Shown here: in pieces, positions 28,001 through 35,005 of the stretch | How the letters are laid out: every line of letters starts with the position of its first letter | Numbering within the stretch: position 1 is the first letter of the stretch | Assembly (NCBI GenBank): GCA_937858715.1 | Contig: CALLZY010000099.1 | Location: 1 to 35,005, forward strand | Reading direction: 5' to 3' | Length of the DNA: 35,005 nucleotides | DNA from: an uncultured Chitinophagaceae bacterium | GTDB taxonomy: Bacteria; Bacteroidota; Bacteroidia; Chitinophagales; Chitinophagaceae | Position numbers and translations under genes: made by a program | The notes under the pieces: generated by a model | Database searches by the model: none | The model's input: only the letters and a program-made list of their open reading frames with translations | Told to the model about the DNA's origin: nothing

Positions 28001-30304
28001 TTATTGAAATACCTCTTTCAGGTAAGCCGTATTCGCCCCATAATTATATTTTGTGTCAGAAGGCTTTTTAGCATCCCTGCTGCGTTCAATAACCAGCCAG
28101 CCGGTGTAGCCTATATCATCCAAACATTTTTTTATCTTATACATATCAATTTGAGGGTCGTTTTGCAGCCATACACTGTCTTTATTGCTAGCATGTATCA
28201 TGGCAATTCTTTCTTTGCCCAAAATTTTCAATTCGCTGATTAAATCCCTGCCTTCTTTTAAGGGGTTGCTGAAGTTGAAGTAAATCTTTATAGCTGGCGA
28301 ACCTATTTCTTTCAACAACTGCACTTCTTCTTTTGCAGATAAAGCCGTTTCAATACCGATAACCACCCTTGCTTCCTGTGCCATTTGGCCGGCTACTTTT
28401 AATCTTGCCACAACAGAATCCCTCTCTGATGGTGTCTTCTTTAAATCGCACTGCACACCCAATGGCAGGAAAGCTGTCTTCACGTTCATTAATTGCATCG
28501 TTTTAATACAATCTTCAATACTGCGTTTGTATTCTTCTCTGCCGCAAAAAGACTGTGCATAATAACCCGTCATGGCAAGAGAAAATATCTCCACTTTATT
28601 CTCCTTGGCTGTTCTTAAAAACTGGTTACGGACAGAGTCTATCAGCAGCACATTGTCGAAAGTGGGACGATTGCCCAAGCCACCCATATCCACTTCCACA
28701 CCATCAGCTTTTAGTTGTGCAGTTAATGTGATTGCTCCCAGTTTCTGCCTCTTCAACAACATTAAATCAATCAGGCCAATTTTGTAGCGTTGATTTGCCC
28801 TCGCTTTTTCTACTTCGTCGTAATACAGTTTCCGGATATTATCAAAACCTTTTACTGCATTCACAGGAAGATTCTCTCCTTTATTTCCAAAAACATAAAA
28901 GGCGTTTTCTGGTTCGACAGTAATGGCAGTATCAACAATATTGCCGTCAGCAGTTTGAATAGCCTTTAAATTCAGCTTAAGGTGCTTTGCAAAAAACTCA
29001 TACACCGCTTTGCGTTTACTGAAGCCAAAATCATGTTTCTCACTGGGCAGATGCACATTAATAAGATTATCACTCTTTCCATACCAGCCGTAAATTTTCT
29101 GCAAGTACAGTAAATCATGCTCAGGCATCCGGTCTGTCCAGTCGCCGCCATCACTCACCACCAATTGTGGTTGCGGTGCGGCCATGGCAGCAATTTCCAG
29201 GTTATCAGTACGGCCCATGCAGCCGTGTACATCTTGTCCGCTTTCGCAGGGGCAACCACCGTAGAAATAGGAAGAAAGATTTACTACAGGTGCTGACACT
29301 TTTATTCTTTTATCTAACGCAGCCATAAACACTGTGTGTGTACCACCGCCACTGCCGCCAACTATAGCCACACGGCTGGTGTCCGCATCTTTTTGTGCAA
29401 GCAGATAATCCAGTATACGTATGCTGGCTAATGTTTGCAATGTCATTGCAAGGCTTTGGCGGTGATCTTCAAAGTTTACCTGCAACAAAGATTCGCCATA
29501 AGCAAACATGTCGTAATTAAACAGCATTCCCCCCATTTTTGCAATAGCTGCTGATGTGTACTGGCAATCGGCACGGTAGCGGTGCTTCTCCCAATGCCCT
29601 TGTGGATGCAGCACCACTGGAATTTTACCTTTGAATTTTTCAGGTTTGTATAAAGAACCATTAACCCATACCCCAGGCAGGATTTCGATTGCTATGTTCT
29701 CGATGGTATAACCATTTTGTTTTCTGAAGTTAGCCCTGACAGGCTGTGAATTTGGCCTTGCGGGCAAATGTGTTAGCTGTAATGCCTCCAGCAGGCAGGG
29801 TTTTAAATCTGCTTTACGTTTCTCCCATTCCTGCACAGTCTTGTATTGTGAGGCAATGCGGTCGAGTTCAGCCCAACCATCTTCAGCACTCCAGCGGTAG
29901 TACTCATAATTACTCAGCTTATATACTTTATCCTTCTCCTTTTTAACTTTCATTTCCAGCGGCTTCAGGATATTATCCAGAGTAACTTCAACATCAGTCC
30001 GGTACTTCCAGTCGGCATAGGTCACCTTTTTATTGGCAACCATGCTGTCAACGTACTTTATCTGTACTCCAAATTTTTTTTGAATGTCGTTGAGAACTTC
30101 TTTGAGGGGTTTGGCGAATTGATTTTCGGTGTTGAGTTGTGCATTGAGCCACAAAGGCGCAAAACCAAGGAGAAACAGGTAGGATTTCACGCAGCGAACG
30201 CTGCGGTTTCGCTGCGACCGCTGCGAGGGAATAGCTGAATAGCGAACAGAACCCTGAAGTGTGCGACGCAACAATGATGATAGTAGTAATGCAGATGACT
30301 TCAT
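28001..30304 (-). CDS. Three-domain protein: STN + serine alpha/beta hydrolase + TIM-barrel epimerase-like
   Basis: This is 767 aa from the start at 30304, 11 bp after the symporter stop; earlier in-frame ATGs lie inside or at the end of the symporter gene. After a signal region, residues 57-132 resemble the STN domain of FecR/TonB-associated proteins (PLKEVLNDIQKKFGVQIKY, VTLDNILKPL, YKLSNYE). Residues about 140-450 are an alpha/beta hydrolase of acetyl-xylan-esterase type: HPQGHW (233-238), elbow GGSGGG with S318, and H424 in SEKHDFGF. Residues about 505-767 look like a xylose-isomerase-like TIM barrel, with E652 (GIETAL) and E740 (VIERSRD) as likely metal ligands. An inserted repeat encodes residues about 11-38; GTG at 30190 is an alternative start giving a normal signal peptide. 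As last gene of the operon it may release and isomerise the substrate. Confidence 0.85.
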   Translation of the reverse strand: MKSSALLLSSLLRRTLQGSVRYSAIPSQRSQRNRSVRCVKSYLFLLGFAPLWLNAQLNTENQFAKPLKEVLNDIQKKFGVQIKYVDSMVANKKVTYADWKYRTDVEVTLDNILKPLEMKVKKEKDKVYKLSNYEYYRWSAEDGWAELDRIASQYKTVQEWEKRKADLKPCLLEALQLTHLPARPNSQPVRANFRKQNGYTIENIAIEILPGVWVNGSLYKPEKFKGKIPVVLHPQGHWEKHRYRADCQYTSAAIAKMGGMLFNYDMFAYGESLLQVNFEDHRQSLAMTLQTLASIRILDYLLAQKDADTSRVAIVGGSGGGTHTVFMAALDKRIKVSAPVVNLSSYFYGGCPCESGQDVHGCMGRTDNLEIAAMAAPQPQLVVSDGGDWTDRMPEHDLLYLQKIYGWYGKSDNLINVHLPSEKHDFGFSKRKAVYEFFAKHLKLNLKAIQTADGNIVDTAITVEPENAFYVFGNKGENLPVNAVKGFDNIRKLYYDEVEKARANQRYKIGLIDLMLLKRQKLGAITLTAQLKADGVEVDMGGLGNRPTFDNVLLIDSVRNQFLRTAKENKVEIFSLAMTGYYAQSFCGREEYKRSIEDCIKTMQLMNVKTAFLPLGVQCDLKKTPSERDSVVARLKVAGQMAQEARVVIGIETALSAKEEVQLLKEIGSPAIKIYFNFSNPLKEGRDLISELKILGKERIAMIHASNKDSVWLQNDPQIDMYKIKKCLDDIGYTGWLVIERSRDAKKPSDTKYNYGANTAYLKEVFQ
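30190..30272 (+). repeat. 30-bp repeat element, copy 2, with CGCTGCG cluster
   Basis: 30243-30272 matches 854-883 at 27 of 30 positions. Adjacent to it (30190-30225) are a perfect hairpin CGCAGCG-AA-CGCTGCG (30190-30205) and two further CGCTGCG copies (30210-30216, 30219-30225). The whole block is read in frame, on the minus strand, by the three-domain protein and codes for an Arg/Ser-rich stretch unlike a signal peptide. The GC-rich sequence contrasts with its surroundings. An element inserted into the 5' end of a gene is the likeliest explanation. Confidence 0.65.
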
Positions 30305-30314
30305 AAAAAAATAT

Positions 30315-31868
30315 TTACTGCTCATTTTCATTATTTCGATTTTGCTTCCAACTGCTGTACAGCAGATTTTTCTCCAACACTGGCTTCGGAAAAAATAAAC
30401 TGGCAGCATAGCCCACTACAATTACAACAATATGGCTATAAACACCGAGCATAAGTTTATGGTGTGTAAAGTTAAAATTACCTAAATCCAGCAGCAATTT
30501 GGGATTTTTAATCCCAACAGGAGTGCTGGTAAGGAAAGCCCAGGCAGTAAATAATATGCAGGTAATGATGCCGATGTTTACACCCTGCCTGTTGGCTCTT
30601 GCACTAAAAAGACCTAATAAAAAAATACCTACTATACCTCCGGAGAAAATGGCATAGATGGTGAAGATAATACCGAGCACACCTTCATTACCTGTAACAA
30701 GATATAAAGCACCGATAGCAATTGAGATGAGGCCAGATAATACAACAAAAAGCTTGCTGGTTTTTAAGTACTGCCCGTCACTTTTATTGGGGCGTAATTT
30801 TTTATAATAATCCTGAATACCGACAGCAGCCAGCGAGTTCAAATCTGCACTAAGGCTGCAAATGGCAGCACTTATAAGAGCTGCAACAATAAAACCAATA
30901 ACGCCAGTGGGCAACTGAGTCATAATAAAATGCGGAAAAACAGCAGAGGCATTTGTACCTTCCGGCAAAGGATTTTGTTTATAGAAGACAAAAAGGGCTG
31001 TTCCGATAAACATGAAAATCGTCCAGATAGGAACGGTTAATGAAATGCCCAGAAAGGATGCTTTGATAGCAGCCTTATCAGTTTTAGCAGTAAGGTATCT
31101 TTGAACAACTGTCTGATCTGTCCCGTACTTCTGAACAGCATAAAAAGCACCGTTGATAATCATGACAATTAAGGTGAGCTGAGTAAAGTTAATATCATAC
31201 GGGCCAAAACCGGCACGGTTATTCTCTGTTGCCACTTTTATTGCTTCAGGCACACCACCTTTAATAGAAAACAACAATACACCTAAACAAATAATGCCAC
31301 TGGCAAAGAGCATGAATCCCTGGAATACATCAAGCCAGATGACAGCCTGCATTCCTCCCTTCAGGTTAACAATAACCAAAACGATACCTACAACAGCCAG
31401 GATAATAAATGGATTAATCGTTGTCATTTCGCTGATGGCAACAGCTATAAGGAAAAGAACCGTTCCCATGCCGGCAAACTGGCGGATAATGAAAGATGAC
31501 GAGCTGTAATACCTTGCAAAACCACCGAATCTTTTCTCAAAGTATTCATAGGTACTTAACCCGATTACTTTACGGAACAAAGGAACAATGAACCAAATAG
31601 TTCCCAATAGTACAACCGGCACCATTAAGCCCTGTACCAGCAAAATCCAATTGCTGGTATAACCTTGTGAAGGATAACCAAGAAAAGTAACACTGCTGAT
31701 AAGAGTGGACAATAAGGATAAGCCCAGTGCCCAAGCAGGAAAGTTTCCTTTAGAAAGAAAATAGTTCTCGGTTGTTTTTTGCCTGTTGGCAAACCGGAAA
31801 CCAAGCCAAAGGGTGATACCTAAAACTATCAGTATGATAGCGTAGTCTATAAAGTGCAAATGGTTCAT
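30315..31868 (-). CDS. Sodium:solute symporter (SSS family)
   Basis: This 517-aa integral membrane transporter has about 13-14 hydrophobic segments. SSS features include the N-terminal FANRQKTTENYFLSKGNFP loop and WALGLSLLSTLISSVTFLGYP, where the Na+-site Ser/Thr residues lie. Others are YEYFEKRFG, GGMQAVIWLDVFQG and the ISAAICSLSADLNSLAAVGIQDYY region. Bacteroidota SSS members clustered with sugar-catabolic genes usually import sugars, sugar acids or sialic acid with Na+. In this operon it probably imports the substrate of the kinase/PdxA2/aldolase set. A hairpin repeat lies in the 65-bp gap before it; its stop is 11 bp from the start of the three-domain gene. Confidence 0.93.
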   Translation of the reverse strand: MNHLHFIDYAIILIVLGITLWLGFRFANRQKTTENYFLSKGNFPAWALGLSLLSTLISSVTFLGYPSQGYTSNWILLVQGLMVPVVLLGTIWFIVPLFRKVIGLSTYEYFEKRFGGFARYYSSSSFIIRQFAGMGTVLFLIAVAISEMTTINPFIILAVVGIVLVIVNLKGGMQAVIWLDVFQGFMLFASGIICLGVLLFSIKGGVPEAIKVATENNRAGFGPYDINFTQLTLIVMIINGAFYAVQKYGTDQTVVQRYLTAKTDKAAIKASFLGISLTVPIWTIFMFIGTALFVFYKQNPLPEGTNASAVFPHFIMTQLPTGVIGFIVAALISAAICSLSADLNSLAAVGIQDYYKKLRPNKSDGQYLKTSKLFVVLSGLISIAIGALYLVTGNEGVLGIIFTIYAIFSGGIVGIFLLGLFSARANRQGVNIGIITCILFTAWAFLTSTPVGIKNPKLLLDLGNFNFTHHKLMLGVYSHIVVIVVGYAASLFFPKPVLEKNLLYSSWKQNRNNENEQ

Positions 31869-31888
31869 GCAATCGTGGCCTCCCCAAA

Positions 31889-31905
31889 CCCCTCCGAAGG
31901 AGGGG
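31889..31905. repeat. CCCCTCC-GAA-GGAGGGG hairpin repeat
   Basis: A perfect 7-bp inverted repeat with a GAA loop sits in the wider context CCTCCCCAAACC before it and CTTTAGACCCTGAC after it. Dispersed intergenic elements of the type CCCCAACCCCTCC-GAA-GGAGGGG-CTT are familiar to me from Chitinophagaceae and relatives; membership is inference. It lies inside the operon between kinase and symporter and lacks a T-tract, so it is not a standard terminator. Confidence 0.6.
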
Positions 31906-31933
31906 CTTTAGACCCTGACAACTCAGGATTCTT

Positions 31934-33025
31934 TTAAATTGTGAATAATCGTTTTATTTCTTCTGGTAATTGATAACTACCCGGCTTTACCGTTATAAAT
32001 AAATTGCCGACCTTCATTCTTACTACCCCCCTGCTTAGTTCATTTACCGGAATTATTTTTTTAATATCCAATTCTTCCAGTACTGCTGCGGCAGTTGAGC
32101 CACCCTCAATAAAAATTTCCTGCACTCCTGTTTCTTCAATCACCGCCCTGGCTGCTATTGCCATTTTTTTTCGCAACTCCTGCGCTGTTTTATCTGTTTC
32201 ATCTACAGCAATAACCAACCTGCGTTTTGTCTCGATAATAGCTGCTGCCTGTTTGAGCCAGCTGTTATCCGCTTCATCGGTTAAGTACAAGACACATTGT
32301 TCCTGCTGGTATAACTGCCTGATAAATTTTCTTCGTTCTTCAATTGCTGTTCCGCAGATATACAGGTGTGGCCCTGGTATTTCAAAAGCTGGCAGGTTTG
32401 CAGCCTTGAATCTTTTTTCCAGCAAAGCAGTAAAGAAATCACCAGCTCCGGCCAGCAACCAGGAGCTATCAAGTTTGCCAGCCCATGTGTCAACATCTGC
32501 TTTAACCAATGCCTCGCCAACCACAATTCCATTTTCGGGTAATTCAGATGCTGGGGCCACTACTTTCACCTCATCATTCAGTATTTCTTTTACAACAGAA
32601 CTACTGACAGGAAACTCAGGATCATTGGCAAAAGACGTTTCGTTGATTTTAACACCGTTCACAAAGTACTCCCCATGAACAACTGTTCTGCCCAACGATG
32701 GATTTGCTGGCAAAACAAAGGCCTTATTTAGCCCCATTTCCTGCATCTGCACTTTCAGTTCATCAACCACATAACCCCTCAGCACTGAATCAATCTTCTT
32801 GAAAACCAGCGAAGGATTCTTCGTTAATAATTGCTTTGAAATATCTGCAATCCTCCGGACAGCTTCTCCCCTCTTTATAGAGCGGCTATCAACAGAAATT
32901 ATCATTACATCAGCGCTGCAATCGTTTACATCTCCGACTAACAACTCTGCACTTAGCCCATATCGCAATGAAATACCGGCTAGCTCAGCAGCACCTGTGA
33001 AGTCATCAGCTATAACAATAATCAT
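31934..33025 (-). CDS. Four-carbon acid sugar kinase family protein (DUF1537)
   Basis: This 363-aa ATP-dependent kinase is of the DenK/DtnK/OtnK type, which phosphorylates erythronate, threonate or related sugar acids at C4. The N-terminal domain opens with the hallmark DDFTGA (7-12) and contains FKKIDSVLRG (75-84), the substrate-binding signature. The C-terminal nucleotide-binding domain has FIEGGSTAAAVL and ends with GVVRMKVGNLFITVKPGSY. It is somewhat shorter than the usual 400+ aa. The start overlaps the PdxA2-like stop by 4 bp, the classic pairing in which PdxA2 oxidises the phosphorylated acid. D-threonate/erythronate-type substrates are known; which applies here is unknown. Confidence 0.92.
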   Translation of the reverse strand: MIIVIADDFTGAAELAGISLRYGLSAELLVGDVNDCSADVMIISVDSRSIKRGEAVRRIADISKQLLTKNPSLVFKKIDSVLRGYVVDELKVQMQEMGLNKAFVLPANPSLGRTVVHGEYFVNGVKINETSFANDPEFPVSSSVVKEILNDEVKVVAPASELPENGIVVGEALVKADVDTWAGKLDSSWLLAGAGDFFTALLEKRFKAANLPAFEIPGPHLYICGTAIEERRKFIRQLYQQEQCVLYLTDEADNSWLKQAAAIIETKRRLVIAVDETDKTAQELRKKMAIAARAVIEETGVQEIFIEGGSTAAAVLEELDIKKIIPVNELSRGVVRMKVGNLFITVKPGSYQLPEEIKRLFTI

Positions 33026-34053
33026 CTCGTATGCTTTGCAAGTTGAACAGCACTTTCTATTGCGAGCAACATAGCATCGGGACTGGCTATTCCCTTGCCG
33101 GCTATCTCGAAAGCTGTACCATGATCAACTGATGTCCGAATGATTGGGAGTCCCAATGTTATATTCACACCTTTCACACTATCCATCTGCTGCTTTTCAG
33201 CATTCCACTTAAAACCGGCAAGTTTAAAAGGGATATGTCCCTGGTCATGATACATTGCCACCACACCACCATAAGCACCCTGTGCTGCTTTAGCAAACAT
33301 TGTGTCAGGCGGCACAGGGCCTTCCACATCATAACCCAGCCGCTTTGCTTCTTCAATTGCAGGGGCAATTTCTTCAATATCTTCTATTCCAAACAAGCCA
33401 TTATCCCCAGAATGAGGATTCAGTCCGGCAACGCCAATTTTCAAATTTGTTTTACCGAGGCGCTTCAGCCCGTCTATTATCAATTCTATCACCTGAATAA
33501 TTCTATCTTTCTTCACCAAATCGCAGGCCTGCCGCAGCGACACATGTGTACTCACATGAATCACATTGATATTATCCTCTACCAGCAACATGGCGTACTT
33601 CTTTGTGCCGGTGTAATGTGCATATATTTCAGTGTGCCCTGCAAAATGATGACCAGCCTCGTTGATTGATTTTTTATTGATCGGACCGGTTACAGTTGCA
33701 TCAACCTCTTTCGCTATGGCGAGTTCTATAGCCTTCTTTACGGCCTGAAAGCTGGCCTCACCACACATGGCATCAATTTTTCCAAATTCAAGCTTACTAA
33801 CATCTAGGATGTTCAAATCAAAAACATCAATAGTCCCCATCTCAAATTTTGCATCCGCTATTTTATTTACTGCGTTCACATTCGCAGGCAACTGTAGTTT
33901 GGCAATAATTTGTTCAAATACTTTGGTATCTCCCACCAGCAGCGGTTTACATATTTCATAAACCTCCGGCCGCAATAATGCTTTTACTGCAATCTCCGGG
34001 CCAATGCTGGCCGGGTCACCCATGGTAATTGCCAATATAGGTCTGTTAGTCAT
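33022..34053 (-). CDS. PdxA/PdxA2-like 4-hydroxythreonine-4-phosphate dehydrogenase family
   Basis: This 343-aa NAD-dependent decarboxylating dehydrogenase has family motifs ITMGDPASIGPEI (9-21), GPINKKSINEAGHHFAGHTE with the metal-binding His, STHVSLRQA, GLNPHSGDNG, MYHDQGHIPFK and the C-terminal GLPIIRTSVDHGTAFEIAGKG. In vitamin B6 synthesis PdxA acts on 4-phosphohydroxythreonine. Next to a DUF1537 kinase the PdxA2 role, oxidation and decarboxylation of 4-phospho-threonate/erythronate to dihydroxyacetone phosphate, is more likely. It lies 8 bp downstream of the aldolase gene and overlaps the kinase by 4 bp. Confidence 0.92.
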   Translation of the reverse strand: MTNRPILAITMGDPASIGPEIAVKALLRPEVYEICKPLLVGDTKVFEQIIAKLQLPANVNAVNKIADAKFEMGTIDVFDLNILDVSKLEFGKIDAMCGEASFQAVKKAIELAIAKEVDATVTGPINKKSINEAGHHFAGHTEIYAHYTGTKKYAMLLVEDNINVIHVSTHVSLRQACDLVKKDRIIQVIELIIDGLKRLGKTNLKIGVAGLNPHSGDNGLFGIEDIEEIAPAIEEAKRLGYDVEGPVPPDTMFAKAAQGAYGGVVAMYHDQGHIPFKLAGFKWNAEKQQMDSVKGVNITLGLPIIRTSVDHGTAFEIAGKGIASPDAMLLAIESAVQLAKHTR

Positions 34054-34061
34054 ATTTCAAT

Positions 34062-34913
34062 TCATTTATCATTATAAGGCGGCATTACGTATTCCTCACA
34101 AATCCCTTTGGCTTGCATCAGCAATTTTAACGCATGCAAACTTTCTCCCAATGTACGGTTAGCCTGGTATAAAGCACCGTAATCGTCACTAAGCTTTTGC
34201 AAAGCATACAACCTTTCCTTGTCGCCTGATTTAAAGGCAGCAACCATATCCTCATAGATTTCAGGATTGATATTTCCCGTACTCGGCACTAATCCATCAG
34301 CCCCATTTAATAATGCTTCGGCACTTTTAGCTGCCCAGCCAAGGATGTAATGAAAGTTCTCCCGGTTGCGCCACAACTGCAATGCCTGTAACATTCTTTC
34401 TTCACTGCGTTCACTGTCTTTTAATCCCACAATATTTTTATGCTGGCTCAGTTCATCAATAACAGACAGAGGAATACTCATGTGAGTTGTAGCCGGGATA
34501 TTGTAGATGAACAACGGTAATGAAATATTATCTGCCAGGCTGATGAAATAGTTCAGCATTTGCTTTTCTGTCAAAGCATAATAAGATGGCAGTGTTGCAA
34601 CCACCACATCTACCTTATGAGCAGAACAGAATGCGGCAAACTCAATGCTCTCTGCCATGACATTACTGCCAATACCAGCATACAGCAGTGTTTCCTTTTT
34701 TTTATTTTGCTCTGCTGCCAGTACATAATCCCTTTTTACTTGTAATGGCAACGATGCAGCCTCACCTGTAGTGCCTAAAATAAATGGTGAAACATTGTGA
34801 GTGTAAAACAAAGTAAAGAGCTTAGCAACCGCCGCTTCATCAATTTGCAGGTTATCTGTAAGCGGTGTTACAGCAGGAACAATCACACCTGTATATTTTT
34901 TTTCCTTAATCAT
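34062..34913 (-). CDS. DHDPS/N-acetylneuraminate-lyase family aldolase (not DapA)
   Basis: This 283-aa class I aldolase has the pyruvate-binding GTTGE (47-51), Y137 in YNIPATT and Schiff-base K165 in GLKDSE. The DapA arginine that binds aspartate semialdehyde, which follows the Tyr motif (YNVPSRT in E. coli), is replaced by Thr here. Lysine synthesis is therefore unlikely, and a 2-keto-3-deoxy-sugar-acid or related aldolase/dehydratase is favoured. Its start codon directly follows the stop of the upstream dehydrogenase with no gap (TAG-ATG), so the two are co-translated. It is part of the kinase/PdxA2/symporter operon. Confidence 0.9.
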   Translation of the reverse strand: MIKEKKYTGVIVPAVTPLTDNLQIDEAAVAKLFTLFYTHNVSPFILGTTGEAASLPLQVKRDYVLAAEQNKKKETLLYAGIGSNVMAESIEFAAFCSAHKVDVVVATLPSYYALTEKQMLNYFISLADNISLPLFIYNIPATTHMSIPLSVIDELSQHKNIVGLKDSERSEERMLQALQLWRNRENFHYILGWAAKSAEALLNGADGLVPSTGNINPEIYEDMVAAFKSGDKERLYALQKLSDDYGALYQANRTLGESLHALKLLMQAKGICEEYVMPPYNDK

Positions 34914-35005
34914 CTAGTATGCTGCTTTATAAATTTCAATCGCATCAGACTCTGTAATCTCCCTCGGATTGTTTTTTAATAGTCGCTGTATCTTCAGTGT
35001 ATCCA
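34914..35005 (-). CDS. Iron-containing alcohol dehydrogenase, C-terminal fragment
   Basis: Only the last 30 codons are in the window; the gene continues beyond the right edge. The translated tail ends LLKNNPREITESDAIEIYKAAY before TAG at 34914-34916. The N-N-P-R-x-x-T-x-x-D-x-x-x-I-Y-x-A-A-Y pattern is the usual C-terminus of group III iron-type alcohol dehydrogenases (1,3-propanediol, lactaldehyde or maleylacetate reductase type). It is the most upstream visible gene of the sugar-acid operon, and could reduce an aldehyde released by the aldolase. Confidence 0.72.
   Translation of the reverse strand, partial: DTLKIQRLLKNNPREITESDAIEIYKAAY

Follow-up and report, generated by a model that had tools for sequence, protein, structure and literature searches.

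The closest described relatives of the gene cluster reported here belong to the catabolism of four-carbon acid sugars and of pectin. D-threonate and D-erythronate reportedly reach dihydroxyacetone phosphate (DHAP) by the action of a DUF1537 kinase and a PdxA2 dehydrogenase alone. In the non-phosphorylative pathways of the YagE family for 2-keto-3-deoxygluconate (KDG) and 2-keto-3-deoxygalactonate (KDGal), an aldolase of the dihydrodipicolinate synthase (DHDPS) superfamily cleaves a 2-keto-3-deoxy acid and the resulting aldehyde is then converted. L-threonate is degraded, according to the accessible portion of PMC12540250, either by LtnD, OtnI, 3-OtnK and 3-OtnC or by LtnD, 2-OtnK and 2-OtnC. 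Accounts of rhamnogalacturonan II (RG-II) breakdown in Bacteroides thetaiotaomicron, in their accessible parts, deal with sugar release: the pectin methylesterase BT1017 is essential for RG-II metabolism and its central module is active by itself (PMC7939467), and of the two sites in the enzyme on which GH143 was founded, one takes L-arabinofuranose off chain D, after which the other, on a five-bladed propeller, cleaves 3-deoxy-D-lyxo-heptulosaric acid (Dha) (PMC6811678). In plants, Dha is restricted to RG-II, as stated in the available text of PMC12168206. The locus described here is an operon of five complete genes and the end of an iron-containing alcohol dehydrogenase (Fe-ADH) gene on contig C99 (positions 1-35005, the whole contig, hereafter the window) of an uncultured Chitinophagaceae bacterium, whose assembly comprises 282 contigs and 4.42 Mb.

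The operon is probably the cytoplasmic end of RG-II side-chain D breakdown, with Dha as its substrate. With slightly less assurance, we read it as a dedicated pathway in which a Dha aldolase, an Fe-ADH acting as tetruronate reductase and a kinase/PdxA2 pair for D-threonate would convert Dha to pyruvate, DHAP and CO2. In the proposed arrangement, an aldolase and a reductase precede the D-threonate kinase/PdxA2 route. The last two families and the proposed end product are the same as in the D-threonate/D-erythronate route, whereas the operon adds the aldolase and Fe-ADH upstream, its kinase and PdxA2-like enzyme score below equivalog cut-offs, and its kinase, at 363 residues, falls short of the 422 of the D-threonate kinase model. 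A DUF1537-type kinase and DHAP as end product are also held in common with the L-threonate pathways, but the proposed last step here is PdxA2. An L-threonate pathway was dropped because the LtnD, OtnI and OtnC families are absent among the five complete operon genes in Pfam searches; a plain threonate/erythronate cluster was considered and dropped as well. The likeness to the KDG/KDGal pathways lies in the order of aldol cleavage and aldehyde conversion, the difference in a predicted substrate that is a C7 diacid and in a C4 acid product that would then be phosphorylated. With the B. thetaiotaomicron RG-II system the locus shares a BT1017-like esterase and, in the same genomes and often in the same cluster, a BT1020-like propeller, and to the sugar release described there it adds a predicted intracellular route.

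The enzyme families are known; their combination and the substrate appear to be new. No paper on Dha catabolism was recognized by title or abstract start among the matches listed from open-access full texts, a weak negative since most subscription journals and all preprints lie outside that collection. No paper of that collection mentions D-threonate together with rhamnogalacturonan, and a hexuronate review mentions Dha, in its accessible part, merely as an RG-II sugar. No account of the fate after release of this strangest of RG-II monosaccharides was recognized among the papers listed. The proposed route comprises four enzymes and names every intermediate with its stereochemistry. If it is correct, RG-II Dha would be a natural source of D-threonate, a C4 acid for which bacteria keep kinases, and four kinds of protein with generic or misleading family-model names would gain functions, namely the conserved DHDPS-family aldolase, the Fe-ADH, the symporter and a subfamily of DUF1537 proteins.

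Gene content and conservation of the operon

The operon consists of the following features.

34914..35005, minus strand: Fe-ADH fragment, comprising the last 29 sense codons and the stop (34914-35003); the frame leaves the contig end
34062..34913, minus strand: type I aldolase of the DHDPS/N-acetylneuraminate lyase (NAL) superfamily (PF00701), proposed Dha aldolase
33022..34053, minus strand: PdxA2-like dehydrogenase (PF04166), proposed oxidative decarboxylase of D-threonate 4-phosphate to DHAP
31934..33025, minus strand: short DUF1537 (four-carbon acid sugar) kinase (PF07005 and PF17042), proposed D-threonate 4-kinase
30315..31868, minus strand: Na+:solute symporter (SSS; PF00474), proposed importer of the acid
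28001..30409 (mechanical open reading frame), minus strand: fusion of a BT1017-like methylesterase (6goc match) and a PF01261 TIM barrel

The five complete open reading frames (ORFs) occupy 28001-34913 of the minus strand, and their Pfam families agree with the names given in a previous, sequence-only reading of the window. That reading described a six-gene operon; its five complete genes lie where it placed them, while the sixth, the Fe-ADH, is a C-terminal fragment cut by the contig end. It had likewise pointed to tight spacing with a 4-bp overlap, and this was found, with gaps of 0 bp between the Fe-ADH stop and the aldolase, 8 bp between aldolase and PdxA, and 65 bp between kinase and symporter, the PdxA and kinase genes overlapping by 4 bp. 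At the symporter/hydrolase junction the spacing hinges on the start: the mechanical ORF overlaps by 95 bp, and a 10-bp gap results if Met at 30304 is the start codon. The hydrolase start probably lies downstream of 30409.

The family name of the truncated gene is correct, because over 28 aligned residues the fragment shares 71% identity with the C-terminus of an Fe-ADH that stands complete in the same place in Lacibacter cauensis. Its remainder was sought across the contigs of the genome and was not found in the assembly; a match on C272 was rejected as the missing part, being a different protein (30% identical).

To describe conservation, 16 named loci were taken from a kinase scan of a species-genome collection (close relatives only) and ten from genomes with a close PdxA2; together with the window they make 27 loci. 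A module of aldolase, PdxA2, kinase and symporter is present in 24 of them, and whole Fe-ADH homologues adjoin it in 22. The order Fe-ADH, aldolase, PdxA2, kinase, symporter is kept in 18 of the 22 five-gene loci, the remaining four (L011, L012, L013 and L017) having the order aldolase, symporter, Fe-ADH, PdxA2, kinase. A further locus, L003, is a 3.5-kb contig with the end of PdxA2, the kinase, the symporter and the beginning of the esterase, cut before the aldolase; it is counted among the 14 module-bearing named loci and not among the 24. In L016 and L018 the kinase stands alone, at 29% and 33% identity. The gene set is conserved far beyond chance. Because the aldolase and the Fe-ADH are co-located with the rest in 24/27 and 22/27 loci, they are not a separate unit, which the sequence-only reading had named as grounds for abandoning its proposal, along with homologous clusters confined to the known threonate set; neither situation was encountered. 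In one genome (G595, L051:7184-8385), two ORFs resembling insertion-sequence transposase genes lie between PdxA2 and kinase.

Association with GH143 and other RG-II genes

In Larkinella rosea, a protein beside the module matches residues 24-613 of 5mqr (E 3e-234) and also PF24067, named "BT_1020-like, N-terminal beta propeller" in Pfam. We take 5mqr to be BT1020, the founder of GH143, in agreement with that name. Among 348 genomes sampled from the order, strong GH143 (a BT1020-type propeller above 300 bits) is present in 12 of 12 genomes with a close PdxA2 (E <= 1e-70) and in 16 of 336 without it (table 12/0/16/320, Fisher p 5.6e-15). Counting by genus, which removes relatedness only partly, gives 9/9 against 7/142 (table 9/0/7/135, p 1.3e-10). 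Across the order sample GH143 exceeds 300 bits in 28/348 genomes, and any match at E <= 0.001 occurs in 32/348. Excluding the window's own genome, GH143 and PdxA2 lie 14-27 kb apart in 9 of 11 genomes.

In a class sample of 295 genomes, GH143 was found in 11 (10 above the cut-off, 11 at E <= 0.001), and PdxA2 at >= 79% identity in two, both with GH143. Left out of this PdxA2 count was G066 (PdxA at 38% identity, E 1e-61), which is not among the GH143 matches. Excluded from the GH143 counts were PF24067 matches below 30 bits (G203 in this sample; in the order sample G521, G549, G600, G617 and an additional match of G595); the weak matches of G600 and G595 exceed the cut-off only together with their neighbours (34.9 and 32.4). 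In the named set, GH143 occurs in 14/16 genomes; among the 14 with the module at their locus (partial in L003), it occurs in 12. In 11 of these 12 it shares a contig with the module, at a distance of 4-41 kb, the L003 contig being too short to show whether it does so there. Because at least one genome belongs to both the named set and the order sample (L008 has the coordinates of G473), their counts are not additive.

In the genome of the window, GH143 (PF24067, 385 bits) is on contig C208, together with a PF13204 apiosidase-like protein, a GH43-like protein, a GH78-BNR_2 fusion, GH2, DUF6298, a PF22422 six-hairpin protein, an FGGY kinase and a split transketolase. C208 starts with a truncated fumarylacetoacetate hydrolase (FAH)-like gene followed by a symporter. 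A symporter and an FAH-like gene resembling these also occur in L004, L053 and L054, where they are followed by a second DHDPS-family gene (Ald2) and then by the Fe-ADH and aldolase of the module. Judging from these arrangements, C208 probably adjoins the window across an assembly gap that would hold most of the Fe-ADH.

The propeller and the six-hairpin domain are two adjacent ORFs in some loci (e.g. L010, L015), whereas a single ORF of ~1100 aa carries the GH143 propeller together with a PF22422-type six-hairpin domain in L038:9394-12723 and L042:9264-12575; the 5mqr chain has 1108 residues. Because it is fused to the propeller as in these 5mqr-like ORFs, the PF22422-type domain is probably GH142.

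The second set beside the module, an SSS symporter and Ald2, was observed in L004:3360-6793, L008:4234-6849, L053:4903-8343 and L054:4888-8303, with an FAH-like protein in all except L008, and possibly serves 3-deoxy-D-manno-octulosonic acid (Kdo) or another RG-II acid. Fusions of a GH78 rhamnosidase with a sialidase-like BNR_2 domain occur in L034:2231-6205, L054:1066-4860 and L055:2317-6108, a pairing that would suit the rhamnose-Kdo side chain C of RG-II.

The operon itself could accordingly be read as serving another RG-II acid, chiefly Kdo, which would be split to pyruvate and D-arabinose; the Fe-ADH would reduce the pentose, and the kinase and PdxA2 would handle a by-product or a second acid. 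The genomic link is indeed to RG-II-type clusters in general, and the GH78-BNR_2 fusion adjoins the module in several Chitinophagaceae loci. We regard this as unlikely, since the C5 aldose obtained from Kdo leaves the kinase and PdxA2 without a substrate, and since Ald2 and the second symporter, in some loci with the FAH-like gene, are free to serve another acid beside the module.

In the RG-II-type cluster of C208, the FGGY kinase is glycerol-kinase-like and lies with the split transketolase at L034:10560-13932; such a pair was also noticed, with a ribose-type ABC transporter, near the Fe-ADH/aldolase module of G110 (L045:12128-19899). The two genes could represent an apiose (apulose) pathway. 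Since apionate routes include proteins of the DUF1537 and TIM-barrel kinds, the operon might be taken to degrade apiose or apionate through a DUF1537 3-oxo-isoapionate kinase and the PF01261 enzyme, with the apiosidase-like gene, FGGY kinase and split transketolase of C208 as supporting neighbours. Such a role is highly improbable: apionate routes are not known to require PdxA2 or a pyruvate aldolase, the FGGY kinase and split transketolase could by themselves cover apiose, and the PF01261 barrel is joined to a probably secreted esterase and appears in L014 as a separate ORF with a signal-like N-terminus.

Enzyme families of the module

The aldolase carries the motif of DHDPS/NAL-type class I aldolases, with GTTGE at 47-51, Y137 and K165 invariant in 22/22 aligned relatives; we take the GTTGE motif, the Tyr of the YN motif and the Lys to be the catalytic and Schiff-base residues of the superfamily. 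Its AlphaFold2 model has a mean pLDDT of 93.8 and alternating strands and helices. The nearest solved sequences are 4xky, deposited as a dihydrodipicolinate synthase, and then the KDGal aldolase YagE. The carboxylate-binding Arg of DapA had been noted as missing, and at the position that presumably corresponds to DapA R138 all 22 relatives indeed have Thr (T142). Three other arginines, R169, R173 and R184, are nearly invariant among the relatives and may, as a speculation, bind the distal carboxylate.

These features bear on the simplest alternative, an ordinary use of four-carbon acid sugars next to a dapA paralogue, the aldolase being a lysine-pathway enzyme. The dapA models are its best matches and 4xky carries the corresponding name, but the score of 127.6 bits does not reach the dapA equivalog cut-off of 206, the presumed DapA Arg position has Thr throughout, and further DHDPS-family genes are present in the same genome on C13 and C173. 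A lysine-pathway function was rejected on the score and the additional genes, and the alternative as a whole is hardly credible.

The kinase matches PF07005 (125.4 bits) and PF17042 (33.1 bits), both over the cut-off, and ADDxTGAAE, EGG and KPGSY are invariant in 20 kinase sequences. Its best NCBIfam model is D-threonate kinase, at 128.9 bits (cut-off 450) and over residues 2-155 only. The nearest solved relatives of the PdxA2-like protein are 2hi1 (PdxA2), then 4jqp and 6e85 ("D-threonate 4-phosphate dehydrogenase"); the window protein reaches 331 of the 583 bits of equivalog NF002891 and passes the general pdxA model TIGR00557 (344.7 against 290). A role in vitamin B6 synthesis was dropped, since the genome has another PdxA-like gene, 33% identical, on C218. 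When plasmids were searched with PdxA2, all relatives returned were below 60% identity. In addition, the assembly of the window contains two more DUF1537 kinases, at C2:3502-4218 and C18:3511-4227, in open frames of 446 and 448 aa; given their near-identical positions they are possibly near-duplicates, assembly contamination being 3.8%.

For the Fe-ADH, the complete Lacibacter protein scores 219 bits against the 4-hydroxybutyrate dehydrogenase model, which ranks sixth and is below cut-off. The substrate of that dehydrogenase is the 2,3-dideoxy analogue of the proposed C4 aldehyde-acid, and we count the match in favour of the proposed role as a C4 aldehyde-acid reductase. The symporter exceeds the TIGR00813 cut-off and accompanies the module in 24/27 loci and in the cut locus L003.

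The hydrolase matches 6goc with E 1.4e-120, its esterase part spanning approximately residues 94-534; we take pectin methylesterases of the BT1017 type to form family CE19. S353, D423 and H459 align with the BT1017 triad given in the accessible text of PMC7939467, on hand-counted residues with a constant numbering offset of 6. Both the alpha/beta hydrolase match and the Ser-Asp-His triad of the BT1017 type are therefore present, whereas the C-terminal DUF3826 of BT1017 is not, and the window protein has the PF01261 TIM barrel there (residues 562-786, E 2.9e-18). The fusion is probably secreted, and the barrel is apparently an exported sugar-isomerase-like domain. The term "esterase/epimerase fusion" in the sequence-only reading holds for the joining of a BT1017-like methylesterase to this barrel; what speaks for an epimerase role is a single match to a ribulose-5-phosphate epimerase model, at 18.8 bits against a cut-off of 200. 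Elsewhere, the barrel stands alone as an ORF whose N-terminus is signal-like (L014:14084-14977) or is fused to BNR_2 (L013:16292-18280 and L017:16272-18260).

The proposed Dha route and points against it

Dha is a 2-keto-3-deoxy C7 diacid, and by carbon bookkeeping its retro-aldol cleavage leaves C4-C7 as 2,3-dihydroxy-4-oxobutanoate. Fischer bookkeeping leads from the D-lyxo sugar Dha to D-threonate, and the same procedure, applied as a control, leads from Kdo to D-arabinose and from KDG to D-glyceraldehyde, as known. With D-threonate as the predicted product of cleavage and reduction, each core enzyme would have a step.

The scheme that follows is inferred throughout, from its substrate and individual reactions to the direction in which the Fe-ADH works and what the symporter carries. 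Outside the cytoplasm, the GH142/GH143 pair would strip L-arabinofuranose and then Dha from the pectin backbone, which the BT1017-like methylesterase would de-esterify, and the symporter would bring Dha into the cell. There the aldolase, through a Schiff base on Lys165, would cut Dha between C3 and C4 to pyruvate and 2,3-dihydroxy-4-oxobutanoate. The Fe-ADH would reduce the aldehyde of the latter to D-threonate, the DUF1537 kinase would convert this to D-threonate 4-phosphate, and the PdxA2-like enzyme would oxidise and decarboxylate the phosphate to DHAP and CO2. Of the two options left by the sequence-only reading, the one in which a longer acid is first cleaved and its product phosphorylated and oxidised is supported by the co-location of the module genes, the GH143 link and the carbon and stereochemical bookkeeping. 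The RG-II link, above all the GH143 propeller, and the bookkeeping point to Dha as the acid it called unidentified.

Several observations weigh against assigning the operon to Dha. Dha was singled out by carbon count and stereochemistry, and the neighbourhood points to RG-II as a whole, allowing for another RG-II acid. At the level of single proteins, the kinase and the PdxA2-like enzyme score below the equivalog cut-offs of the D-threonate enzymes and the kinase match is N-terminal only, the best solved relative of the aldolase is a deposited dihydrodipicolinate synthase, and the PF01261 barrel has no step in the proposed pathway. At the level of genomes, GH143 is unlinked to PdxA2 in 2/11 of the order genomes (1.9 Mb away in G489, 0.65 Mb in G110), two metagenome-assembled genomes of 1.7 and 2.4 Mb (L011 and L012) have the module without GH143, and no Fe-ADH was found in the stretches of L050 examined. 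Furthermore, 16 of the 28 strong-GH143 genomes in the order sample and 8 of the 10 in the class sample are without PdxA2. A kinase match (E <= 1e-5) is absent from 23 of these 24, the other having one 26-bit partial match. No close aldolase was found in any of the 24, six having profile matches at E <= 1e-30 (best 131 bits); two control genomes gave 500 and 518 bits, both being members of the profile alignment.

Since GH143 occurs in such genomes, Dha can be released without the module, and bacteria of this kind may not use Dha or may use another route. Their GH143 neighbourhoods (L036-L044) carry RG-II-type genes, and no aldolase or kinase of the module type was found in them; L040 has an Ald2-like gene at 40%.

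The same genomes help to judge whether the cluster handles two substrates, the aldolase and Fe-ADH acting on a KDG-like 2-keto-3-deoxy acid and the kinase and PdxA2 on free threonate or erythronate. The D-threonate/erythronate route with kinase and PdxA2 alone, the position of YagE as second-best solved relative of the aldolase, and the lone kinases of L016 and L018 speak for this division. It is distinctly unlikely because in the 24 PdxA2 loci whose contigs reach far enough the aldolase, kinase and symporter are always present, because one gene order prevails among the five-gene loci, and because GH143 genomes without PdxA2 are also without the close aldolase and, in 23/24, without a kinase match, so that the module genes are present or absent as a set. 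Nor would a pair of unrelated acids account for the link to GH143.

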